DNA from: Verrucomicrobiota bacterium
Lineage (GTDB): Bacteria; Verrucomicrobiota; Verrucomicrobiia; Chthoniobacterales; UBA10450
Direction of reading: 5' to 3'
Assembly (NCBI GenBank): GCA_003218785.1
Contig: QHOM01000017.1
Span: forward strand, 5,421 to 38,432
Length of the DNA: 33,012 nucleotides
Shown here: one piece after another, positions 20,103-30,034 of the stretch
Layout: each line of letters opens with the position of its first letter
How positions within the stretch are numbered: position 1 is the stretch's first letter
The notes under the pieces: model-generated
Seen by the model: only the letters and a program-made list of their open reading frames with translations
Database searches by the model: none
Told to the model about the DNA's origin: nothing
Made by a program: the position numbers and the translations under genes

Positions 20103-21208
20103 GCGGCGAGGACTTCCGCTTCGCGTCCCGACGTAAGACCGGCGCGCAGTTTAGATTGTCGATCTTGCGGCAACGATTTGAACCACGCGAGGGTGTCGCG
20201 CGCCGTTTCGGCAAGGGGGCGAAACGTCAAGCCCTTGGCCAGCGCGCGGTTGATATTTGTTCGCGCGAGGCCGGGCTCGTCGCCCACCCAGACCGGCATA
20301 TCCGACCATGCCTCAACTTTTTGTTGTTGGAGGAAATCGGCAGGCAACCAGGTAAATTTCGCGTCCGAATTGAGCGCGCTTTTGATCTCGTCGAGCATCT
20401 CGCCGATCACGAGTGGCTTGGCCGGCCCAACAGCGTTGTAAATTCCCGTCTCACGGTTCTCCACCATGCGGATCGTCCACTCAGCCAGATCGCGCGCATC
20501 GATGAATTGAATCGGATCGCTCGGTTTGCCGGGTGCAAGCACTTCGCCGCTGCGATCGATGCGCACCGGCCAGTAGGTGAAGCGATCGGTCTCGTCGCGC
20601 GGCCCAACGATCAAACCCGGACGAATGGTCAATGCTTTTCCCGGAAACCATTTCTCCGTTTCCTTTTCCGACAAGGCTTTGAGCGGCCCGTAGGTTTTAT
20701 AACCGGAAGCTTTTATCGCTTCGAGCGTCTCTTTGTACGGATCTGCACCGTCGTGCTTCGCAAGCGGCGCGTTTTCATCGGCGCCTTTCGTCGTATCGGC
20801 ATAAACCGAGATCGTCGAGATAAACACGTAACGCTCAACGTTTCCTTTCAAAATTTGCGCTGCATCACGCACCCAAGCGGGCAGTGTCGTCGGATTGTCG
20901 ATTGCCACATCCCATTTGCGTCCTTTCAGTGCATCCAATTGGCCGTTGCGATCGCCAACCAATTGTTCGACTTCGTTCGGCAGTTCGCCCGGATGCGTTT
21001 TTCCTCGATTGAAAGTGGTTACCCTATGTCCGCGGCTGAGGGCATAACGAACCTGGTATGGGCCGGTGAATCCTGTGCCGCCGAGGATGAGAATGCGCAA
21101 AGGTTTCACGGATTTCTCAGCGAATAACTTTGTCGATCTAATTCCTAATCCAAACGCGCCGCCAACCGCAGCGGCGAGTTTGATGAAAGTTCGTCTTGTC
21201 GTCGGCAT
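20081..21208 (-). CDS. Tat-exported NAD-dependent epimerase/dehydratase
   Basis: Twin-arginine signal MPTTRRTFIKLAAAVGGAFGLGIRS; Rossmann LRILILGGTGFTGPYQVRYALSRGHRVTTFNRG; start at 21208. Confidence 0.88.
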   Translation of the reverse strand: MPTTRRTFIKLAAAVGGAFGLGIRSTKLFAEKSVKPLRILILGGTGFTGPYQVRYALSRGHRVTTFNRGKTHPGELPNEVEQLVGDRNGQLDALKGRKWDVAIDNPTTLPAWVRDAAQILKGNVERYVFISTISVYADTTKGADENAPLAKHDGADPYKETLEAIKASGYKTYGPLKALSEKETEKWFPGKALTIRPGLIVGPRDETDRFTYWPVRIDRSGEVLAPGKPSDPIQFIDARDLAEWTIRMVENRETGIYNAVGPAKPLVIGEMLDEIKSALNSDAKFTWLPADFLQQQKVEAWSDMPVWVGDEPGLARTNINRALAKGLTFRPLAETARDTLAWFKSLPQDRQSKLRAGLTSGREAEVLAAWHKQRR

Positions 21209-21350
21209 CGGCGTGCATAATCGCTGCCCTTTCCATGAGTGCAATCGGCGGTTGTACGGCGTCTGTGTCAGACACCGCAGGTTTGAATTGGCGTTTCGCA
21301 GAAACGCCCTGCAAGTTATTAGTCGGTTCGACAGAGGTCTCGCCCCACTG

Positions 21351-22283
21351 GTGAAGGAAAAACTTACGCGCCGCGAAGCCACCCGCTTGATCGGCGCGGG
21401 CGCGGCGGGATTGCTCTTTGGTGCGTCACCTGTGTGTACGGCAAACGAATCGTCAACGATGCTGATGCGCACGATTCCTTCTTCGGGTGAGAAGCTGCCC
21501 GTGATCGGCTTGGGAACGTGGCGAACGTTCGATGTCGATCTTACGCCGGACAATCGGAAGCAATTGGAGGACGTGCTTGCCCTGTTCGTGAAGCTAGGTG
21601 GACGCGTAATCGATACGTCGCCGATGTACGGTCGCGCCGAGGAGGTGATCGGCGATCTCACCGCGGCGCTCGGAATTCGGGACAAGCTTTTTCTCGCAAC
21701 GAAAGTGTGGACGCATGGCAAAGAGAGCGGGATCAACTCGATGGAACGTTCATTGGCGCGACTGCGAACAAAACGCATCGACCTGACGCAGGTTCACAAC
21801 CTTGTCGATGTCGATACACATCTCGCTACGCTGCGGGAATGGAAGGGTCAGCGCCGCATCCGCTACATCGGAATTACGCATTACGAGTCAGGTGCTCTCG
21901 TTGACGTGGAAAAAATTATGGGGAGCGAGAAACTCGATTTCGTACAGATCAACTATTCACTGATGGAACGCGAAGCGGAAGAGCGGGTTCTGCCGCTTGC
22001 CCAGGAACGCGGCGTCGCTGTGATTGCCAATCGTCCGTTCGGCGGAGGTGATTTGTTCGCGCGGGCGCGAGCGAAACAGTTGCCCGATTGGGCGGCCGAA
22101 TTCGATTGCCGATCCTGGGCGCAGTTCTTTCTGAAATGGATCGTCGCGCATGCTGCCGTCACCTGCGCCATTCCCGCGACCGACAACCCGCGCCACCTTG
22201 AGGACAACATGCAAGGAAGAATCGGACGGCTTCCTGACGCAAAGATGCGTCAGCGAATGGTTGAGATCGTTTCTTCGTTTTAG
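21351..22283 (+). CDS. Tat-exported aldo/keto reductase (GTG start at 21351 proposed)
   Basis: Twin-arginine-like signal LTRREATRLIGAGAAGLLFGA; AKR motifs LPVIGLGTWRTFDVD, GGRVIDTSPMYGRAEEVIG, KTHRIDLTQVHN-like region, RRIRYIGITHY, VAVIANRPFGGG. Confidence 0.88.
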   Translation: MKEKLTRREATRLIGAGAAGLLFGASPVCTANESSTMLMRTIPSSGEKLPVIGLGTWRTFDVDLTPDNRKQLEDVLALFVKLGGRVIDTSPMYGRAEEVIGDLTAALGIRDKLFLATKVWTHGKESGINSMERSLARLRTKRIDLTQVHNLVDVDTHLATLREWKGQRRIRYIGITHYESGALVDVEKIMGSEKLDFVQINYSLMEREAEERVLPLAQERGVAVIANRPFGGGDLFARARAKQLPDWAAEFDCRSWAQFFLKWIVAHAAVTCAIPATDNPRHLEDNMQGRIGRLPDAKMRQRMVEIVSSF

Positions 22284-22455
22284 TGCTCCTCCTTCTCCCG
22301 TCTTTGGGTCGAAAATCCATGGCCTTGGATTTGGTTTCGCGCTGTAAACAACTCAGTTTCAAGGGCCCCGGGGGAAACTGCAGGCAAAAAATATCGTTTT
22401 TTCAAAAAAAATCGCTTGCAGAGGCAACCGATCTCATCGATAGATCGCGCTCTTT

Positions 22456-23019
22456 ATGCGAAAAATTCTCCCCGTTACCGTCGTTTTTCTTTGCTGCATG
22501 GCCTTTTGTCCCCGCCCAGCCTTTGCGTTGAATATGTCGCCGTCGACACCGGTAAAACCGAGATTTGTTTACAAGGACGCCTCCGGAAAAGTGACCTCGG
22601 CCGACGTTGTCGAAAAATATTATCCGAAGAAAATCGTGCAGCCGTTTGTCAAAGTTGATTCCCAGATCGACCCAAAGCTGTGCCGCGCTGCTACGATTGC
22701 CGAGGAGCGCGCCCGCGCACACTCGCATTGTCTGTGCTGGCGTTTTGTGAAAGAAGCGCTCGTTGCCGCGGGCGTGGTCGGCTCCCGACCCCAGACGCTG
22801 TTGGCGAAGCAAGCCGGACAGGAGCTCGTGAACAATTACGGTTTCAAAAAGCTCCCGGTGTCGAATCCCTATGAAGCGCCGGTCGGCGCGGTGCTGGTCT
22901 ATGGCGGCAGTCGCGCGGCAGGGCACGTCGAGATTCGCACGGAGGATGGTTTCGTCAGCGATTTCCGATCGAAAACGCCGTCGCGTCGGCCGCTGATCGG
23001 CGTTTTCGCGAAGGCTTAG
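22456..23019 (+). CDS. Secreted NlpC/P60- or CHAP-like cysteine hydrolase (putative)
   Basis: Signal peptide MRKILPVTVVFLCCMAFCPRPAFA; candidate Cys in SHCLCWRFVKEAL and His in GAVLVYGGSRAAGHVEIRTEDGFVSDF. Confidence 0.55.
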   Translation: MRKILPVTVVFLCCMAFCPRPAFALNMSPSTPVKPRFVYKDASGKVTSADVVEKYYPKKIVQPFVKVDSQIDPKLCRAATIAEERARAHSHCLCWRFVKEALVAAGVVGSRPQTLLAKQAGQELVNNYGFKKLPVSNPYEAPVGAVLVYGGSRAAGHVEIRTEDGFVSDFRSKTPSRRPLIGVFAKA

Positions 23020-23051
23020 GCTGTCGCCGCAGTTGCTAACAAGGTGGCCGC

Positions 23052-23072
23052 AGGTCCAGCGACAACGGACCT
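23052..23072 (+). terminator. Possible hairpin terminator downstream of the secreted hydrolase
   Basis: AGGTCC-agcgacaac-GGACCT perfect 6-bp stem; no following T-run, so weak. Confidence 0.25.
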
Positions 23073-23179
23073 CTAGGGAAAGGGATAACGGAAGTATTTA
23101 TGTCGATGACCGCTGGAGGCTTTGAGGTTGGCGTCTTCTTAGGCCTCGCAACGAGCCGGAAACATGCGCGTGTAGGAAC

Positions 23180-23764
23180 CTATGTTCTGCGCCGGGCATA
23201 TTCCAAGAATAAATTCAACGACAGCAATGCCGGCACGGTCCAGTGAGGATTCACAGGCTGGAAATCATTCGGCCTTCCTTCCGAACTTGTCGTGGCGCTA
23301 CTAGCAATATTCGCGGGCGATGACCTTGGATTTTTCGTGGCTAAAAGCTTGGTACCGCGCTTGGTGCCGGGTGTTAGAATTCGCACCGTCATAAAATGTG
23401 AATGCGCTTTTGCCCAGGCGAGCGCCCTTTGTTTGGTATCGAAAAAACGATCGATGACGATGGCATTGCGCTCAGCCGCATTCCGCCCGCACGACCGCGC
23501 GGCTTTGCGATTGACGACATCCGGTCCGCTGTCTACAGCCACACACGCCGCATCGGGAAAGACAACTTTGCTGCCATAAGGAATTTTGCTTGGATCGACG
23601 GCGCAATGCCCGTCGCGCAGCCGTGTGCCGTTCCAAGATGCATGCTCGCCCGAACCTTCCCCATGCCAGTAAACCGTGATGCGCGCGAGTACTGAATGCT
23701 CCCCGGCAAACGCTTGGCACACGAGAGGCAACATAAAGCCAATTGCGATAATTAACCCCTTCAC
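23180..23764 (-). CDS. Secreted 3D-domain protein (double-psi beta-barrel, MltA-C/RlpA-like)
   Basis: Signal peptide MKGLIIAIGFMLPLVCQAFA; ARITVYWHGEGSGEHASWNG, CAVDPSKIPYGSKVVFPDAACVAVDSGPDV, AIVIDRFFDTKQRALAWA. Confidence 0.8.
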   Translation of the reverse strand: MKGLIIAIGFMLPLVCQAFAGEHSVLARITVYWHGEGSGEHASWNGTRLRDGHCAVDPSKIPYGSKVVFPDAACVAVDSGPDVVNRKAARSCGRNAAERNAIVIDRFFDTKQRALAWAKAHSHFMTVRILTPGTKRGTKLLATKNPRSSPANIASSATTSSEGRPNDFQPVNPHWTVPALLSLNLFLEYARRRT

Positions 23765-24107
23765 ACTTTTCTCCGCTTAATTCCCGGCGGCGGAAATCCG
23801 GTTACATCCAAAAGGGTCAGGGGAAAATGTGAGGCAATCAATTCGCAACTGCGTCGCCGTTTGGTTCCCACCGAAGACGAATTTCTGAGAGAACCCGCGG
23901 AATCAGCCCTGATGATCGATTGTTAGAAATCCGCTAACCAACTGAGGCGTTAAGTTACGGTGCGATGGCCGCCGCGCCGATAATGATCTGTAGCTGCTTT
24001 CGCTGATTGCGGCCCGCGATTACCAACGGTTGCGCGTAGGCGGCGTCGGAAAACTTGGGAGACGATTGCATCTCGTAATCCACTCGATGTAATTTCATTC
24101 TAAGAGA

Positions 24108-24848
24108 ATGTCTGGCGACCATGTTCCAATTCGCATTGCGATGTGGTCGGGCCCGCGAAATATCTCGACGGCCATGATGCGCGCGTGGGGCAATCGACCG
24201 GACACGCTTGTCGTCGATGAGCCGTTTTATGCATTTTATTTAAAGGCGACCGGCAAAGAGCATCCTGGCGCGGATGAAGTGATCGCGACCGGCGAAACAG
24301 ATTGGCGGAAAGTCGTTGAGCGGTTGACCGGCGCAATTCCCGAGGGCAAGCGCATTTTCTATCAGAAACAGATGACACATCATCTGCTGCCGGAAGTGGA
24401 TCGAGAATGGCTTGGCGTGATGATGAATTGTTTTCTCATTCGCGATCCGCGCGAAGTGATCGGGTCTTATATCAAGAAGCAAGGGGACCCAACATTGGAA
24501 GATCTCGGGTTTGCGCAGCAGGAGCAGATCTTCGATTGGGTGCGCGCTCGCACCGGTGGGAGGCCGCCAGTGATTGATGCGCGCGATGTGCTGGAAAATC
24601 CGAACCGAATTTTAGGATTATTGTGCGATGCAGTGGGGGTCGCGTTCAACGAGTCAATGCTCTCCTGGCCAAGTGACCTGCGCGAAACGGATGGCATTTG
24701 GGCGAAGCATTGGTACGGCGAAGTGGCAGGATCCACATCGTTCCGGCCGTATCAGCCTAAACACAACGACGTGCCGGGACGTCTACGCGAAATTTACGAG
24801 CGTTGCCGCGAATGTTACGGACGGCTTTATGAATACCGGCTGCATTGA
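24108..24848 (+). CDS. Sulfotransferase-like P-loop family protein
   Basis: IRIAMWSGPRNISTAMMRAWGNRPDTLVVDEPFYAFYLKATG, CFLIRDPREVIGSYIKK, VIDARDVLENPNRILGLLCDAVGV. Confidence 0.82.
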   Translation: MSGDHVPIRIAMWSGPRNISTAMMRAWGNRPDTLVVDEPFYAFYLKATGKEHPGADEVIATGETDWRKVVERLTGAIPEGKRIFYQKQMTHHLLPEVDREWLGVMMNCFLIRDPREVIGSYIKKQGDPTLEDLGFAQQEQIFDWVRARTGGRPPVIDARDVLENPNRILGLLCDAVGVAFNESMLSWPSDLRETDGIWAKHWYGEVAGSTSFRPYQPKHNDVPGRLREIYERCRECYGRLYEYRLH

Positions 24849-24883
24849 ACCGTGGATAACGCGGATTTCGCGAATATAAACCT

Positions 24884-24906
24884 AATCAGGAAGCCAAGAA
24901 TCCTGA
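24884..24906. repeat. Dispersed intergenic motif AATCAGGAAGCCAAGAA (copy 2)
   Basis: One mismatch relative to 15182-15198 over 17 nt; followed by tcctga making an inverted CAGGA...TCCTG. Confidence 0.4.
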
Positions 24907-25010
24907 CTCCAATCTCTTTGTTCCTGGTTCACGGGTTCAGATTAAAGTCCTGCTGAAGAGCGGGAACTTAGTGTTCATTCGTGGCCATTCGTGGTTAGAT
25001 TTCCGCTTTC

Positions 25011-25910
25011 ATGCTTCAGAGATTCGATGAGCGAAACCGCGACCTGATCGTCAACATCAACGGGCGCCTCGTGCATCGCGACCAAGCGGGGATCAGTCCG
25101 TTTGATTCAGCCGTGCAAGGCGGTGACGCGGTTTGGGAAGGTTTGCGTCTGTATAATGGCCGGATTTTCAAGCTCCATGAACATCTTGATCGCTTGCATC
25201 GCTCAGCCGTCGCTTTGTCTTTTCCTGAAATTCCGTTACACGAGGCGATCATCGAGGAAATCAAACGCACGCTGGTCGCAAACAAAATGAGCCACGGAGT
25301 GCATATCCGTCTAACGCTCACGCGCGGGGTGAAGGTCACATCAGGGATGGATCCCCGGCTCAATCAGTCGGGGCCGACGCTGATCGTTCTCGCGGAGCAC
25401 AAGGCGCCGGTTTACGCGAAGACCGGGCTCACGCTGATTACGAGTAAAATACGGCGGCCGCCGGCCGACGTTCTTGATGCACGAATTCATCACGCCAATT
25501 TGCTGAATTCGATCCTGGCAAAGATCGAAGCTAATAACGCCGGTGCGGACGACGCGCTGATGCTCGACACGCGGGACTTTGTGGCCGAGACAAACGCGAC
25601 ACACGTTTTCATTGTGCGGAAAGGCGAGCTGGCTACAAGCTGCGTGGTGGCCTGTCCGGAAGGAATCACGCGCGCCACGGTAATCGAGATTTGCGCCACG
25701 GAGAAAATTCCGTGTATGGAAGCCGATCTGAAGCTCAATGATGTTTACGGAGCCGACGAAATGTTTTGCACTGGCACAATGGGCGAACTCGCCGCCGTCA
25801 CGAAAGTGGACAATCGCGTCATTGGCGATGGCAGGGTTGGCCCGATAACAAAACGATTAAGCGACCTTTACGCGCAGCGCACTGCAAAAGAAGGGATTCT
25901 GGTCGTCTAA
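25011..25910 (+). CDS. Class IV aminotransferase (branched-chain/D-amino acid aminotransferase-like)
   Basis: VNINGRLVHRDQAGISPFDSAVQGGDAVWEGLRLYNGRIFKLHEHLDRL, HHANLLNSILAKIEANNAGADDALMLD, VAETNATHVFIVRKG, GITRATVIEI, EMFCTGTMGELAAVTKVDNRVIGDG. Confidence 0.93.
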   Translation: MLQRFDERNRDLIVNINGRLVHRDQAGISPFDSAVQGGDAVWEGLRLYNGRIFKLHEHLDRLHRSAVALSFPEIPLHEAIIEEIKRTLVANKMSHGVHIRLTLTRGVKVTSGMDPRLNQSGPTLIVLAEHKAPVYAKTGLTLITSKIRRPPADVLDARIHHANLLNSILAKIEANNAGADDALMLDTRDFVAETNATHVFIVRKGELATSCVVACPEGITRATVIEICATEKIPCMEADLKLNDVYGADEMFCTGTMGELAAVTKVDNRVIGDGRVGPITKRLSDLYAQRTAKEGILVV

Positions 25911-25922
25911 TTGCACGGTTCC

Positions 25923-26180
25923 CTACCGATAATGATAGCGGAGCTGTGCAGTAAAGAGTTGATCACCGACCTTCTTGTAAACAATCCGATGCTCGGAAGT
26001 GATCCGCCGGGAGCAATATCCTTGAAACGCATGCTTTAGCGGCTCGGGTTTGCCAATTCCTGTGTAAGGATCCCGCATGATCTCCTTGATCAGTAGATTA
26101 ACCCGCGAAAGGATTGCGGGGTCGTTTCGCTGCCAATACAGGTAGTCTTCCCAGGCTTGTGGCGCGAAGACTAGATTCAC
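25923..26180 (-). CDS. yoeB: Txe/YoeB family toxin
   Basis: MNLVFAPQAWEDYLYWQRNDPAILSRVNLLIKEIMRDPYTGIGKPEPLKHAFQGYCSRRITSEHRIVYKKVGDQLFTAQLRYHY: full YoeB signature. Confidence 0.95.
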   Translation of the reverse strand: MNLVFAPQAWEDYLYWQRNDPAILSRVNLLIKEIMRDPYTGIGKPEPLKHAFQGYCSRRITSEHRIVYKKVGDQLFTAQLRYHYR

Positions 26181-26182
26181 GC

Positions 26183-26434
26183 CTAGAGCTTCAACTTGCG
26201 TTTGAGGCCCTTGCCGCGTTCCAGCGCATCCACTGCTTCGATCAGACGCTTCGCGTTTGCCGGCGAGCGGAGCAAGTGCGCCGTTTCCTGAAGCGACTCA
26301 TACTCCTCAAGGGAGAGCATCACCACCACTTGATCCCGGTTCTTGGTAATAACAACAGGCGCGTGATCTTCGCAGACGCGGTTGATCGTGCTGGCCAGAT
26401 TTTCTCGAGCGGCGGTATAGGTAATTGACTTCAC
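26183..26434 (-). CDS. yefM: YefM/Phd family antitoxin (GTG start 26434 proposed)
   Basis: VKSITYTAARENLASTINRVCEDHAPVVITKNRDQVVVMLSLEEYESLQETAHLLRSPANAKRLIEAV; directly upstream of the toxin. Confidence 0.93.
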   Translation of the reverse strand: MKSITYTAARENLASTINRVCEDHAPVVITKNRDQVVVMLSLEEYESLQETAHLLRSPANAKRLIEAVDALERGKGLKRKLKL

Positions 26435-26473
26435 TTGGACAGGATACCTGCCCATACGACGCCGGCGCAAGGG

Positions 26474-26499
26474 CCCGCAGGCAGGCTATGCCTACTGCC
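26474..26499 (-). repeat. Degenerate GTAG-footed hairpin (copy H) overlapping msrA stop codon
   Basis: On - strand GGCAGTAGGCATAGCCTGCCTGCGGGC: AGGCA-tagcc-TGCCT stem next to a GTAG; TAG is the msrA stop. Confidence 0.45.
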
Positions 26500-26980
26500 A
26501 AGTCTTCTCTTTAAACAAGACCCCGAATTTTCCTGAGCGCGCGAGCTTCTCCTTTGAAGCCTCTGCAATCTTCTTTTCTTCCGTGCCGTTGTAAAAAATC
26601 GCGGCACGATAACTAGGCCCGATGTCGGTGAACTGGCCATCTGCCTGCGTGGGATCGATTTGCCGCCAGTAAATGTCGAGCAACTGATCGTAAGAGATTC
26701 TTGTGGAGTCGTATGTGATTTCGATTGATTCGCGGTAGCCAGTTTTTTCGGAGGAGACGAGTTGGTACGTAGGATTCGGTTCCGTCCCGCCAGAATAACC
26801 AACGACGGTTTTGATCACGCCTTTGGCCTTGTCGAACGCCGGTTGGATGCACCAAAAGCAGCCGCCGGCGAAGACTGCGGTCCTCGTTGGTGGAGAAGAC
26901 GAATTTTGGCCGTGGATAGGATCAACAAAAAGCGCAACCGCAGCGCTAAAGAGCAGAGCAAAAACAAGGAGTCTTTTCAT
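26492..26980 (-). CDS. msrA: Peptide-methionine (S)-S-oxide reductase MsrA, secreted, C-terminally short
   Basis: Signal peptide MKRLLVFALLFSAAVALFVDPIHG; AVFAGGCFWCIQPAFDKAKGVIKTVVGYSGG, WRQIDPTQADGQFTDIGPSYRAAIFY; ends after KLARSGKF-GVLFKEKTWQ without the usual C-terminal YHQ region. Confidence 0.88.
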   Translation of the reverse strand: MKRLLVFALLFSAAVALFVDPIHGQNSSSPPTRTAVFAGGCFWCIQPAFDKAKGVIKTVVGYSGGTEPNPTYQLVSSEKTGYRESIEITYDSTRISYDQLLDIYWRQIDPTQADGQFTDIGPSYRAAIFYNGTEEKKIAEASKEKLARSGKFGVLFKEKTWQ

Positions 26981-27113
26981 AATTGTCGAATCTTAGACAA
27001 CGCTGGGAGCAGTTTGTTCCGGCTTTTGGGCTTGCCGGTATTCAATCAGGCTTGGGCTTCGGCACTGCTCGCCAGGCAGCCTAAACGTTTGCTGACCACT
27101 TTGCCACTGCGGG

Positions 27114-27773
27114 TTGAAGCATTTCGCAACGCTGCAATTCTTCTCCGTGATCGAGTTGGTCCCGGAATCGTACGTTGCAACGCTTGATCTTGAGAAAATC
27201 TTCGGGCGCACCGCGCCGTTGCATGTCGATCTTGGCTGCGGCGACGGCTCATTTCTGTGCGCGCTGGCGCATGACATGCCCGACAAGAATTTTCTCGGAA
27301 TCGAGCGGTTACTCGGTCGAATCCGAAGCGCTGCGAGCAAAGCTGCGAACATAGGCAATGTACGCCTGCTGCGGATGGAAAGTTCTTATGCCGTTCGTTA
27401 TTTGTTGCCAGCCGGTTCGGTGGAAAAGTTTTATCTTTTATTCCCCGATCCCTGGCCAAAACGGCGTCACTGGCGGCACCGGATCGTCACGGAAGATTTT
27501 TTGGGCGCAATCAGTCAGGCACTGGCAGGAAATGGAACCTTCCGCATCGCGACCGATCACCTTGCTTACTTTGAAAGGATTAAAGAGACCGCGCGAGCAA
27601 ATCCTCATTTTGCGGTGGTCGAACCCGACGACGCTGATCCATTCGTCTGTCGCTCCCACCACGGCGGGCAGGCAGGACGGGTTCTGCCGCTAACAAAATT
27701 TGAGAGAACATTTCGCGCGCAAGACGTGCCGATTCACTGGCTCGAGCTGCGAAAAGTTTCACGTGTGAGATAG
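27114..27773 (+). CDS. trmB: tRNA (guanine-N7-)-methyltransferase TrmB
   Basis: HVDLGCGDGSFLCALA, NFLGIERLLGRI, FYLLFPDPWPKRRHWRHRIV, TDHLAYFE, TKFERTFRAQ. Confidence 0.9.
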   Translation: MKHFATLQFFSVIELVPESYVATLDLEKIFGRTAPLHVDLGCGDGSFLCALAHDMPDKNFLGIERLLGRIRSAASKAANIGNVRLLRMESSYAVRYLLPAGSVEKFYLLFPDPWPKRRHWRHRIVTEDFLGAISQALAGNGTFRIATDHLAYFERIKETARANPHFAVVEPDDADPFVCRSHHGGQAGRVLPLTKFERTFRAQDVPIHWLELRKVSRVR

Positions 27774-30034
27774 CTTTGCGCTTCCCAACCAGTGTCGGCA
27801 AAGCGCAATGTCACTGCGCCGGTCTCATCCTGGCGAAAGAGTTTGATGCCGCGCGCTTGCACATCCTCTGCCCATTTGTCGTCAATCCGTTCGTAGTCGG
27901 GAAAATCGCGCGAGGTGGCGATGACTAAGCGCGGCTGCACAGCATCAAGAAATGGCCCGGAGCCGGAATTCCCGGAATGATGCTGGCCCTTGATCCAGAC
28001 GTCGCTGTGCAAATCTGCGTTCCTGCGAAGCAACTGATCTTCCGTTTTGATTCCGCTGTCCGACGTTAACAAGACGCGTGCTCCGGATGAGAGAACAAGC
28101 TGCAACACGCATGCCTGATCGTCAGCGATAGAAGCGCTGAAGCTTCGAGGCGGAAAAAGAACATGCGCGGTGACTTTGCGTGATAAGCGGAAACTGTCTC
28201 CCGTGGCCAAATCGGCCGGCTTGATTCCGCGTTCTCGAAATAGACGCTGCAATCGTTGATGAACAGTTGAATGATCCGGCGCCGGATTGTCGATTAAACG
28301 AACACGAGGAAAATCGCGCAGCAATTCCGCCGCACCCCCGATATGGAGCGAGTCGCCGTGAGTGAGCAACAAACCATTGAGTCGGTTCACGCCAGCCCAG
28401 TGCAAATACTCGCGAACCACACTCTCATAACTTCGCTCGCTCCCGCAATCGAAAAGCCAATCCGCGCCCCCTGTCTGCAAGTGAACAGCCGCGCCCGCGC
28501 CGAGATCCAAGACAGTGATCTTTGCGGCCAGCTTTTCGGGCCAATGCGGCTGTTCGACGTAAAAGTGTCCGCCGGGGATTTGCGCGAAAAGCTGCACGAT
28601 CCACAGGACAAAGTGTGCCAAAAGCCAGTTGGCATTATTGAAGATTACGGCGAGCCACGCCAGCAATGGCGTCGAGAGAAGCGAGAGCAACGCGATCGCG
28701 AGAATGAAGAAGGCAATCGGAACAACCACCAAATTTGCGAACAATGAGATTGGAGTGACGATATGAAAATACCAGAGGATGAATGGCAACGAACCAATCC
28801 AGGCTGCGAGCGAAACGGAAGCTCCACGGCAGAGCGATTCGAAAGCAACATGCATCAAACGACGCGGGCCGCGCAGCAAACTGCGTGGCAGGAAAGGATC
28901 GGGTGCGCCCCAGCGCTGCAAAAATCCAAAAAGAGGATTAGCAAACAGTATGATTGCGTCCACCACTGCGAATGAGAGCTGAAAGCCGGTCGAGAAAAGT
29001 TCGTTCGTATCCCAGCAGAGAAGAAAGAACGCCGCCGCAGCGAGACTGTTGAGCACAAAAACTTTTCGGTCGAAAAAGAAGCCGCCTAGCAGAATCGAGC
29101 TCATTACTGCGGCCCGCACACTCGAGACATGCAGCCCGGTCACTGCCGCGTAAAAAAGCAGCAGGGGAATAATGAGCGCAGTCGCCCATTTGCGCGACAG
29201 TCGCGCGACCATCGCCAGCATCCACAAGAGCGCCGCAACAATGCCTACGTGGAGGCCAGCGACAGCGAAAAGGTGGAGCGTGCCGGTTTGTTGGAACGGT
29301 TCCTCGATATCTTCAGGTGATTGGTGCCTAAGCCCAAGCACGATTCCGCTGAGAAAATTTTGCACCTCGGGTGCGGTCTCTAACCCTCGGCAAAGCGCGT
29401 TTTGCATCCAGGCGCGTGATTTTTGTGCGGCATGTAAGATCGGGTTTCCACCGCGGTGTCGAATCAGCGTGCCGTCTTCCGGATAACGAACAAACAAGAG
29501 CCGGTGAACGTCGCGACGCGCGAGATAGGATCGCATATCGAATTCGCCAGGATTTCGCGGCGGCGCGATAACTTCTACAGTTCCGAAAAGGCGCAATTCA
29601 TCGCCAAATTCCGGAGCACCGCGCCAGCGGACCTCCAAGTCCGCGCGCGTCGGTTGTTTCCTGCCTTCGAGTTCAATTGACTCCAGCTTCAGCAAAAAGG
29701 TCGCGAATCCGTTCGGTGCGATTTTCGGCTCATTGATGACGAACCCGGTTGCGGTGACGACGCGTGGCTGGTTGCCAAGCTCAGCAGCGAGCTGCTGCCC
29801 TTCGGTGTTGCTGGTTCGCAAACTGTGCAGCAAAAAGAAACCAGCTCCTACGATTGCATAGGTCGCGATCAGGTTTGACCAGCGCAAGAGAGCGACGGCG
29901 CAGATCACGATGGCCATCGCAGTTGCGAGCAGGGCGGAAGAAGGGAGTGGAAAGAAGTCCGCCAGCATGATTCCTATTGCGGCCACTGTCGCCAAGCCAA
30001 CGAAGGGCTGACGCGGCGCACTCAGCAATTTCAT
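27734..30034 (-). CDS. comEC: ComEC/Rec2-family DNA uptake channel with C-terminal metallo-beta-lactamase-like domain
   Basis: DUF4131-type N-terminus, FLSGIVLGLRHQSPEDIEEPFQQTGTLHLFAVAGLHVGIVAALLW, multi-TM Competence domain, C-terminal LLLTHGDSLHIGGAAELL and VLLTSDSG...GQHHSGNSGSG. Confidence 0.92.
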   Translation of the reverse strand: MKLLSAPRQPFVGLATVAAIGIMLADFFPLPSSALLATAMAIVICAVALLRWSNLIATYAIVGAGFFLLHSLRTSNTEGQQLAAELGNQPRVVTATGFVINEPKIAPNGFATFLLKLESIELEGRKQPTRADLEVRWRGAPEFGDELRLFGTVEVIAPPRNPGEFDMRSYLARRDVHRLLFVRYPEDGTLIRHRGGNPILHAAQKSRAWMQNALCRGLETAPEVQNFLSGIVLGLRHQSPEDIEEPFQQTGTLHLFAVAGLHVGIVAALLWMLAMVARLSRKWATALIIPLLLFYAAVTGLHVSSVRAAVMSSILLGGFFFDRKVFVLNSLAAAAFFLLCWDTNELFSTGFQLSFAVVDAIILFANPLFGFLQRWGAPDPFLPRSLLRGPRRLMHVAFESLCRGASVSLAAWIGSLPFILWYFHIVTPISLFANLVVVPIAFFILAIALLSLLSTPLLAWLAVIFNNANWLLAHFVLWIVQLFAQIPGGHFYVEQPHWPEKLAAKITVLDLGAGAAVHLQTGGADWLFDCGSERSYESVVREYLHWAGVNRLNGLLLTHGDSLHIGGAAELLRDFPRVRLIDNPAPDHSTVHQRLQRLFRERGIKPADLATGDSFRLSRKVTAHVLFPPRSFSASIADDQACVLQLVLSSGARVLLTSDSGIKTEDQLLRRNADLHSDVWIKGQHHSGNSGSGPFLDAVQPRLVIATSRDFPDYERIDDKWAEDVQARGIKLFRQDETGAVTLRFADTGWEAQSYLTRETFRSSSQ

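Follow-up and report, generated by a model that had tools for sequence, protein, structure and literature searches.

Conserved bacterial pairing of a putative PAPS-dependent sulfotransferase with a class-IV aminotransferase homolog that lacks the catalytic lysine

Two adjacent genes of a Verrucomicrobiota bacterium encode a putative PAPS-dependent sulfotransferase (ST) and a class-IV aminotransferase homolog (AT) in which histidine occupies the position of the catalytic lysine. The genes are located in a 33,012-nucleotide stretch of DNA that was analyzed as a whole (the window), and the two proteins very probably act in one pathway. As a tentative mechanism, we propose that the ST sulfonates a substrate from which the AT then eliminates sulfate. 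A broader picture is more speculative: the pair may represent a widespread, undescribed system, in which a PAPS-dependent sulfotransferase activates an amino or keto acid at a hydroxyl group, a fold-type-IV PLP/PMP enzyme with histidine for lysine expels the sulfate, and land plants have a single related fused protein.

The original prediction placed two co-oriented genes at positions 24108-24848 and 25011-25910 of the window, and both reading frames are indeed open at these coordinates:

24108..24848, + strand: ST gene (246 amino acids), first of the pair, with a match to PF19798 (Sulfotransfer_5)
24849..25010, + strand: intergenic spacer of 162 bp between the ST and AT genes
25011..25910, + strand: AT gene (299 amino acids), second of the pair, with a class-IV aminotransferase fold (PF01063) of the His-type (H-type)

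The start of the AT gene at 25011 is supported by an MLQ start that is conserved among the aligned relatives. The source assembly (2.78 Mb in 332 contigs) is 84 per cent complete. Elsewhere, the gap between the two genes is at most 60 bp in 40 of 79 H-type loci (median of 58), and gaps of 10–60 bp are common in other phyla.

Just downstream of the pair, on the minus strand, two small ORFs (window positions 25923-26470) resemble, by eye, a YoeB/Phd-type toxin-antitoxin system. The neighborhood at 21066-30034 is partly common to related Verrucomicrobiota MAGs (L008, L009, L013, L014, L016, and L019); its upstream part contains an aldo/keto-reductase-like ORF and one for a small protein that looks secreted, and its downstream part MsrA-, TrmB-, and ComEC-like ORFs, all named by eye.

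The pairing is not restricted to this genome, in line with the original prediction: it was found in Verrucomicrobiota, Planctomycetota, Pseudomonadota, Chloroflexota, Gemmatimonadota, Acidobacteriota, and others. When 85,462 prokaryote species genomes were scanned, at least 569 relatives of the ST emerged, and the best 80 of these were kept. In 63 of these best 80 loci (of at least 569), an AT gene is situated nearby on the same strand, mostly within 350 bp. The other 17 of the best 80 have no AT in the stretch covered around the ST; an H-type AT is encoded elsewhere in 11 of these genomes, an AT with asparagine at the lysine position (N-type) in two, and neither in four. When adjacent loci are pooled (with a few duplicates), ST precedes AT in all 79 H-type loci, and AT precedes ST in all 13 N-type loci. 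Because identical adjacency and order are seen in approximately 80 loci from many phyla, chance adjacency can be excluded.

Unbiased samples, together comprising 782 genomes, represented Verrucomicrobiota, Planctomycetota, Chloroflexota, and the class of a Competibacteraceae MAG (G210). The ST is encoded in five of the 196 Verrucomicrobiota genomes, and the same five encode a lysine-less AT. Thirty of the 200 Planctomycetota genomes have the ST and 28 a lysine-less AT, all within the 30; in one of the two remaining genomes, a truncated AT lies 14 bp beyond the ST, at the end of a contig. In the class of G210 (185 genomes), five have the ST and six the AT, with five shared, and in the phylum of a Chloroflexi MAG, G208 (201 genomes), the respective numbers are two, four, and two. 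Across the 782 genomes, related ones of which are not independent, all 35 H-type ATs occur in ST-carrying genomes, and the three ATs found without an ST are all N-type. An ST without a detected lysine-less AT was observed in a few genomes (G196, G199, G207, G212, and G286), some of which are incomplete. Pairwise divergences of ST and AT are correlated (r = 0.80; the best of 1000 permutations reached 0.17), a value that includes the shared ancestry of the genomes and does not by itself prove an interaction.

No third conserved gene accompanies the pair, the commonest neighbor family accounting for 4 of 86 neighboring genes, and no exporter or sulfatase recurs among these neighbors. No fused ST-AT ORF was found among the bacterial loci compared, and a scan of viral contigs returned no relative. 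The two genes may be regarded as a candidate self-contained two-enzyme module. The Rosetta-stone reasoning of the original prediction, by which the two proteins share one pathway, is well supported by the bacterial pairing alone, since the pair is conserved across phyla.

The ST was correctly recognized from the outset as sulfotransferase-like with a P-loop domain: PF19798 matches residues 9-213 with an E-value of 1.6e-55 (188 bits versus a cut-off of 23.2), and the proposed motif WSxPRxxSTxxM...VVDEPxYAxxLKATG reads WSGPRNISTAMM ... VVDEPFYAFYLKATG in the window. Three segments bear on its function:

24144..24170, + strand: WSGPRNIST (residues 13-21), P-loop-like 5'-phosphosulfate motif, with a role proposed from the analogous motif of PAPS sulfotransferases
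24363..24383, + strand: QKxMxHH motif (residues 86-92), candidate catalytic or substrate residues
24441..24467, + strand: RDPREVIGS (R112...S120), putative 3'-phosphate-binding motif, aligned with the segment RHPYSVIES of the CurM sulfotransferase in the profile match

Among 26 aligned relatives, W13, P16, R17, S20, and T21 of the first motif, Q86, K87, M89, H91, and H92 of the second, and R112 and S120 of the third are invariant. In the PDB, the AlphaFold2 model of the ST (pLDDT of 90.7) is most similar to the CurM (4gbm) and olefin-synthase (4gox) sulfotransferases, followed by tyrosylprotein sulfotransferases. The top 16 fold matches are all sulfotransferases, with TM-scores of only 0.44–0.56, and weaker matches include shikimate and adenylate kinases; a search of the PDB with the family profile returned 4gbm and 4gox only. 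From family profile, motifs, and modeled fold, we infer that the ST is a PAPS-dependent sulfotransferase. PAPS use is also suggested by an APS kinase encoded in the source genome and by a conjugative plasmid of Dolichospermum sp. DET69 (L184, 5989-7917), on which a PF19798 relative precedes cysC, the APS kinase gene, by approximately 0.6 kb; no annotated AT lies beside it in that stretch.

The second protein had been predicted to be a class-IV aminotransferase. Its fold agrees with this assignment (PF01063 [Aminotran_4], E-value of 1.5e-40; Foldseek TM-scores of 0.86 to 7z79 and 0.85 to 5e25, with the best folds all of type IV), but the catalytic lysine is replaced by His160. The positions of interest, compared with those of lysine-containing (K-type) ATs, are as follows:

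25332..25334, + strand: codon of Lys108, invariant in lysine-less ATs (91/91 H-type and 19/19 N-type) and Gly in 17/17 K-type
25488..25490, + strand: CAT codon of His160, at the catalytic-lysine position by alignment with the Lys of 5e25 and 5mqz
25500..25502, + strand: codon of Leu164, at a position always occupied by Tyr in K-type ATs
25587..25589, + strand: codon of Glu193, at the pyridine-N ligand position, Glu in 91/91 H-type and 17/17 K-type
25662..25673, + strand: GITR (residues 218-221), retained segment for binding of the PLP phosphate

The segment NIKSLNYLNN of 5e25 and 5cm0, whose lysine is the PLP Schiff-base residue, aligns with RIHHANLLNS of the window AT; a second class-IV AT of the source genome retains the lysine (VKSLNYLNN). 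All 91 H-type sequences have His at position 160, all 19 N-type sequences Asn, and all 17 K-type sequences Lys. The tyrosine four residues past the K-type lysine, which in class-IV enzymes is the residue near PLP O3', is replaced in the H-type, mostly by leucine. Because the Schiff-base lysine is missing in all 91 H-type members examined, the AT probably does not work as an ordinary transaminase, and the transaminase chemistry implied by the original prediction is doubtful. A sequencing or frame error was rejected as the cause of the missing lysine, which is absent throughout the clade.

The remainder of the active site is strongly conserved. Phosphate-cup residues are kept in lysine-less ATs and the pyridine-N Glu, whose role is known from E. 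coli BCAT, in the H-type; Arg61, Glu193, Thr220/Arg221, and Thr256 of the PLP cup are all invariant in the 91 H-type sequences. Judged from these residues, the cofactor pocket looks intact apart from the covalent anchor and would bind PLP or PMP. The AlphaFold2 model (pLDDT of 84.5) is of low confidence around residues 32-37, 109-119, and 158-162, the last including residue 160. In the AT phylogeny, a branch with SH-aLRT support of 96 separates the H- and N-type ATs together from the K-type, and the H- and N-types each form a single group (99 and 100, respectively). Given that the lysine-less ATs are one clade, a single loss of the lysine suffices by parsimony.

N-type ATs have Thr or Ser in the Glu193 column, suggesting that their cofactor chemistry has changed further. 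They also occur without an ST, so the AT chemistry would not depend strictly on sulfonation. Five such ST-less loci, on plasmids of Paracoccus versutus (L188), Agrobacterium salinitolerans (L193), Pseudomonas savastanoi (L191), Paracoccus ferrooxidans (L212), and Thioclava electrotropha (L216), contain a polar amino-acid ABC transporter and a CLC chloride channel, together with proC in four of the five and mostly a GntR regulator. They possibly function in catabolism of a halide-releasing amino acid. These plasmid relatives are annotated as 'aminotransferase class IV' or 'D-amino acid aminotransferase'. Within the H-type, a deep subclade carries the motif S(K/T)IHHNN(L/I/V)(L/I/V)NNILA (L149, L151, L152, and L153 from the planctomycete sample; L198 and L199 from the class of G210); in its planctomycete members, the ST also contains MYSFAQR or MYAFAQR, and in the AT domain it is the group closest to a putative plant fusion.

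That fusion would be represented by the Arabidopsis BCAT-like proteins At3g05190/At5g27410, which we take to join a PF19798-like domain to a class-IV aminotransferase. In a provisional version of the plant sequence, PF19798 matches positions 12-240 and PF01063 positions 295-521, giving the order ST-AT; the identity is 32 per cent for the ST part (E-value of 1e-35) and 52 per cent for the AT part (2e-103), and KIHHNN places a histidine at the lysine position. The bacterial ATs closest to this sequence are not the window AT but those of two planctomycete-sample loci, L179 and L149 (64–65 per cent), which share SKIHHNN with it; L149 also shares MYSFAQR in the ST. The match is a lead for plant homology, not proof. 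Neither Arabidopsis gene was named in the literature that we searched. A census of plant sulfotransferases included PF19798 among its search models and reports SULT, TPST, and NFST groups (PMC12506393); its main text does not mention aminotransferases and reports no ST-AT fusions. The NFST group corresponds to IPR052796, which we do not equate here with the PF19798 family.

In the mechanism that we tentatively prefer, the ST, as its fold and motifs suggest, would transfer a sulfonate group from PAPS to a hydroxyl or another nucleophile in a small metabolite that is probably an amino or keto acid. The AT would hold PLP or PMP noncovalently, with no lysine as anchor, and the sulfonated substrate would form an imine directly with the cofactor. 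His160, perhaps together with Lys108, might then act as acid/base to expel sulfate in an elimination or deoxygenation, rather than a normal transamination. This chemistry is suggested by two precedents. CurM and olefin-synthase (OLS) sulfotransferases sulfonate a beta-hydroxyl with PAPS ahead of decarboxylation and desulfation, which makes the hydroxyl able to leave (PMC3903477). In ColD, E1, and SpnQ, replacement of lysine by histidine turns relatives of aminotransferases into PMP-dependent 3-dehydratases, with the histidine as acid/base (PMC8987622). The AT does not itself have the fold type I of ColD/E1-type dehydratases, its best fold matches all being of type IV.

Against elimination counts the fact that sulfotransferases usually yield stable sulfated products. 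The steps may instead run in the reverse order, with the AT making or holding an amino compound, free or as a PLP/PMP adduct, and the ST sulfonating it on oxygen or nitrogen to give a stable sulfated metabolite. Such a scheme, which we regard as possible but doubtful, fits the usual place of sulfotransferases at the final product, the AT-ST gene order of the N-type, and the presence of ST-less N-type ATs in amino-acid ABC-transporter operons, suggestive of amino-acid substrates. It fits less well with the opposite gene order of the H-type and with the lack of a recurrent exporter or sulfatase beside the pair, and the lost lysine makes efficient amine transfer unlikely.

It is unlikely that the AT is still a transaminase or racemase, if a slow one, that forms external aldimines directly and moves the proton by His160 or Lys108, the ST catalyzing a different step in the pathway. 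Both the lysine and the neighboring tyrosine are replaced in all H-type members, and selection retains the histidine instead of restoring lysine; yet the phosphate cup and Glu193 are kept, Lys108 has been gained and is invariant in both lysine-less types, and a deposited structure of an N174K mutant of the Variovorax paradoxus homolog (9j32) shows that others have already probed this position. Quite unlikely, in our view, is a pseudoenzyme AT that serves the ST as scaffold, allosteric subunit, or PLP sensor: a single loss of the catalytic lysine in the clade, the tight one-to-one pairing, and the putative plant fusion would be expected of it, but conservation of the active site is strong and extends to the invariant new His and Lys, and the two genes are not always linked in the genome. 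That the PF19798 protein is some other P-loop enzyme acting with the AT, such as a kinase, is very improbable despite the weaker kinase matches, given that all top fold matches are PAPS sulfotransferases, that the profile search gives sulfotransferases only, that R112/S120 of the 3'-phosphate motif are invariant, and that cysC is located near the plasmid relative.

The system would bring fold type IV to the few PLP folds that have histidine in place of the catalytic lysine, and a vague 'BCAT-like' annotation becomes a testable two-step hypothesis. Our literature search found no paper describing the ST-AT pair and nothing specific on 7z79/9j32, the plant genes, or PF19798 in combination with an aminotransferase. 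Each protein belongs to a known family; their combination and the replacement of lysine by histidine in fold type IV look new. Members of the lysine-less clade are likely annotated as aminotransferases despite their inability to form a lysine Schiff base, and their near-perfect co-occurrence with one sulfotransferase family across phyla offers a concrete handle on an unrecognized reaction, which would run in plants too if the putative plant homologs are genuine.

Among known systems, the CurM and olefin-synthase sulfotransferase domains (4gbm and 4gox) are the nearest solved relatives of the ST by both profile and fold. They are remote (approximately 17–19 per cent identity; for CurM, a TM-score of about 0.56 and 17 per cent) and act within polyketide synthases on carrier-bound beta-hydroxyacyl chains, whereas the window ST is a stand-alone protein. 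The sugar 3-dehydratases ColD, E1, and SpnQ likewise have histidine in place of the lysine of their aminotransferase ancestor, as at position 160 of the AT, but ColD/E1 are of fold type I, act on nucleotide sugars, and are not homologous to class IV, so that the precedent is only chemical. The provisional Arabidopsis BCAT-like sequence is one fused chain that does not keep the HH of QKxMxHH, whereas the window pair is split. Branched-chain aminotransferases of fold type IV (5e25, 5mqz, and E. coli IlvE) resemble the AT in fold, phosphate cup, and overall sequence (approximately 40 per cent identity for 5e25), but have the catalytic Lys and Tyr, and Gly at position 108, where the AT has His160, Leu164, and Lys108. 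The aminotransferase-like protein of Variovorax paradoxus (7z79) is the best match of the AT in both sequence and fold (approximately 42 per cent identity). It is also a lysine-less class-IV protein, of the N-type by motif: it has Asn where the window AT has His, its type has Thr or Ser where the window AT has Glu193, and proteins with its LNSHSR motif are encoded in ABC-transporter operons without an ST.
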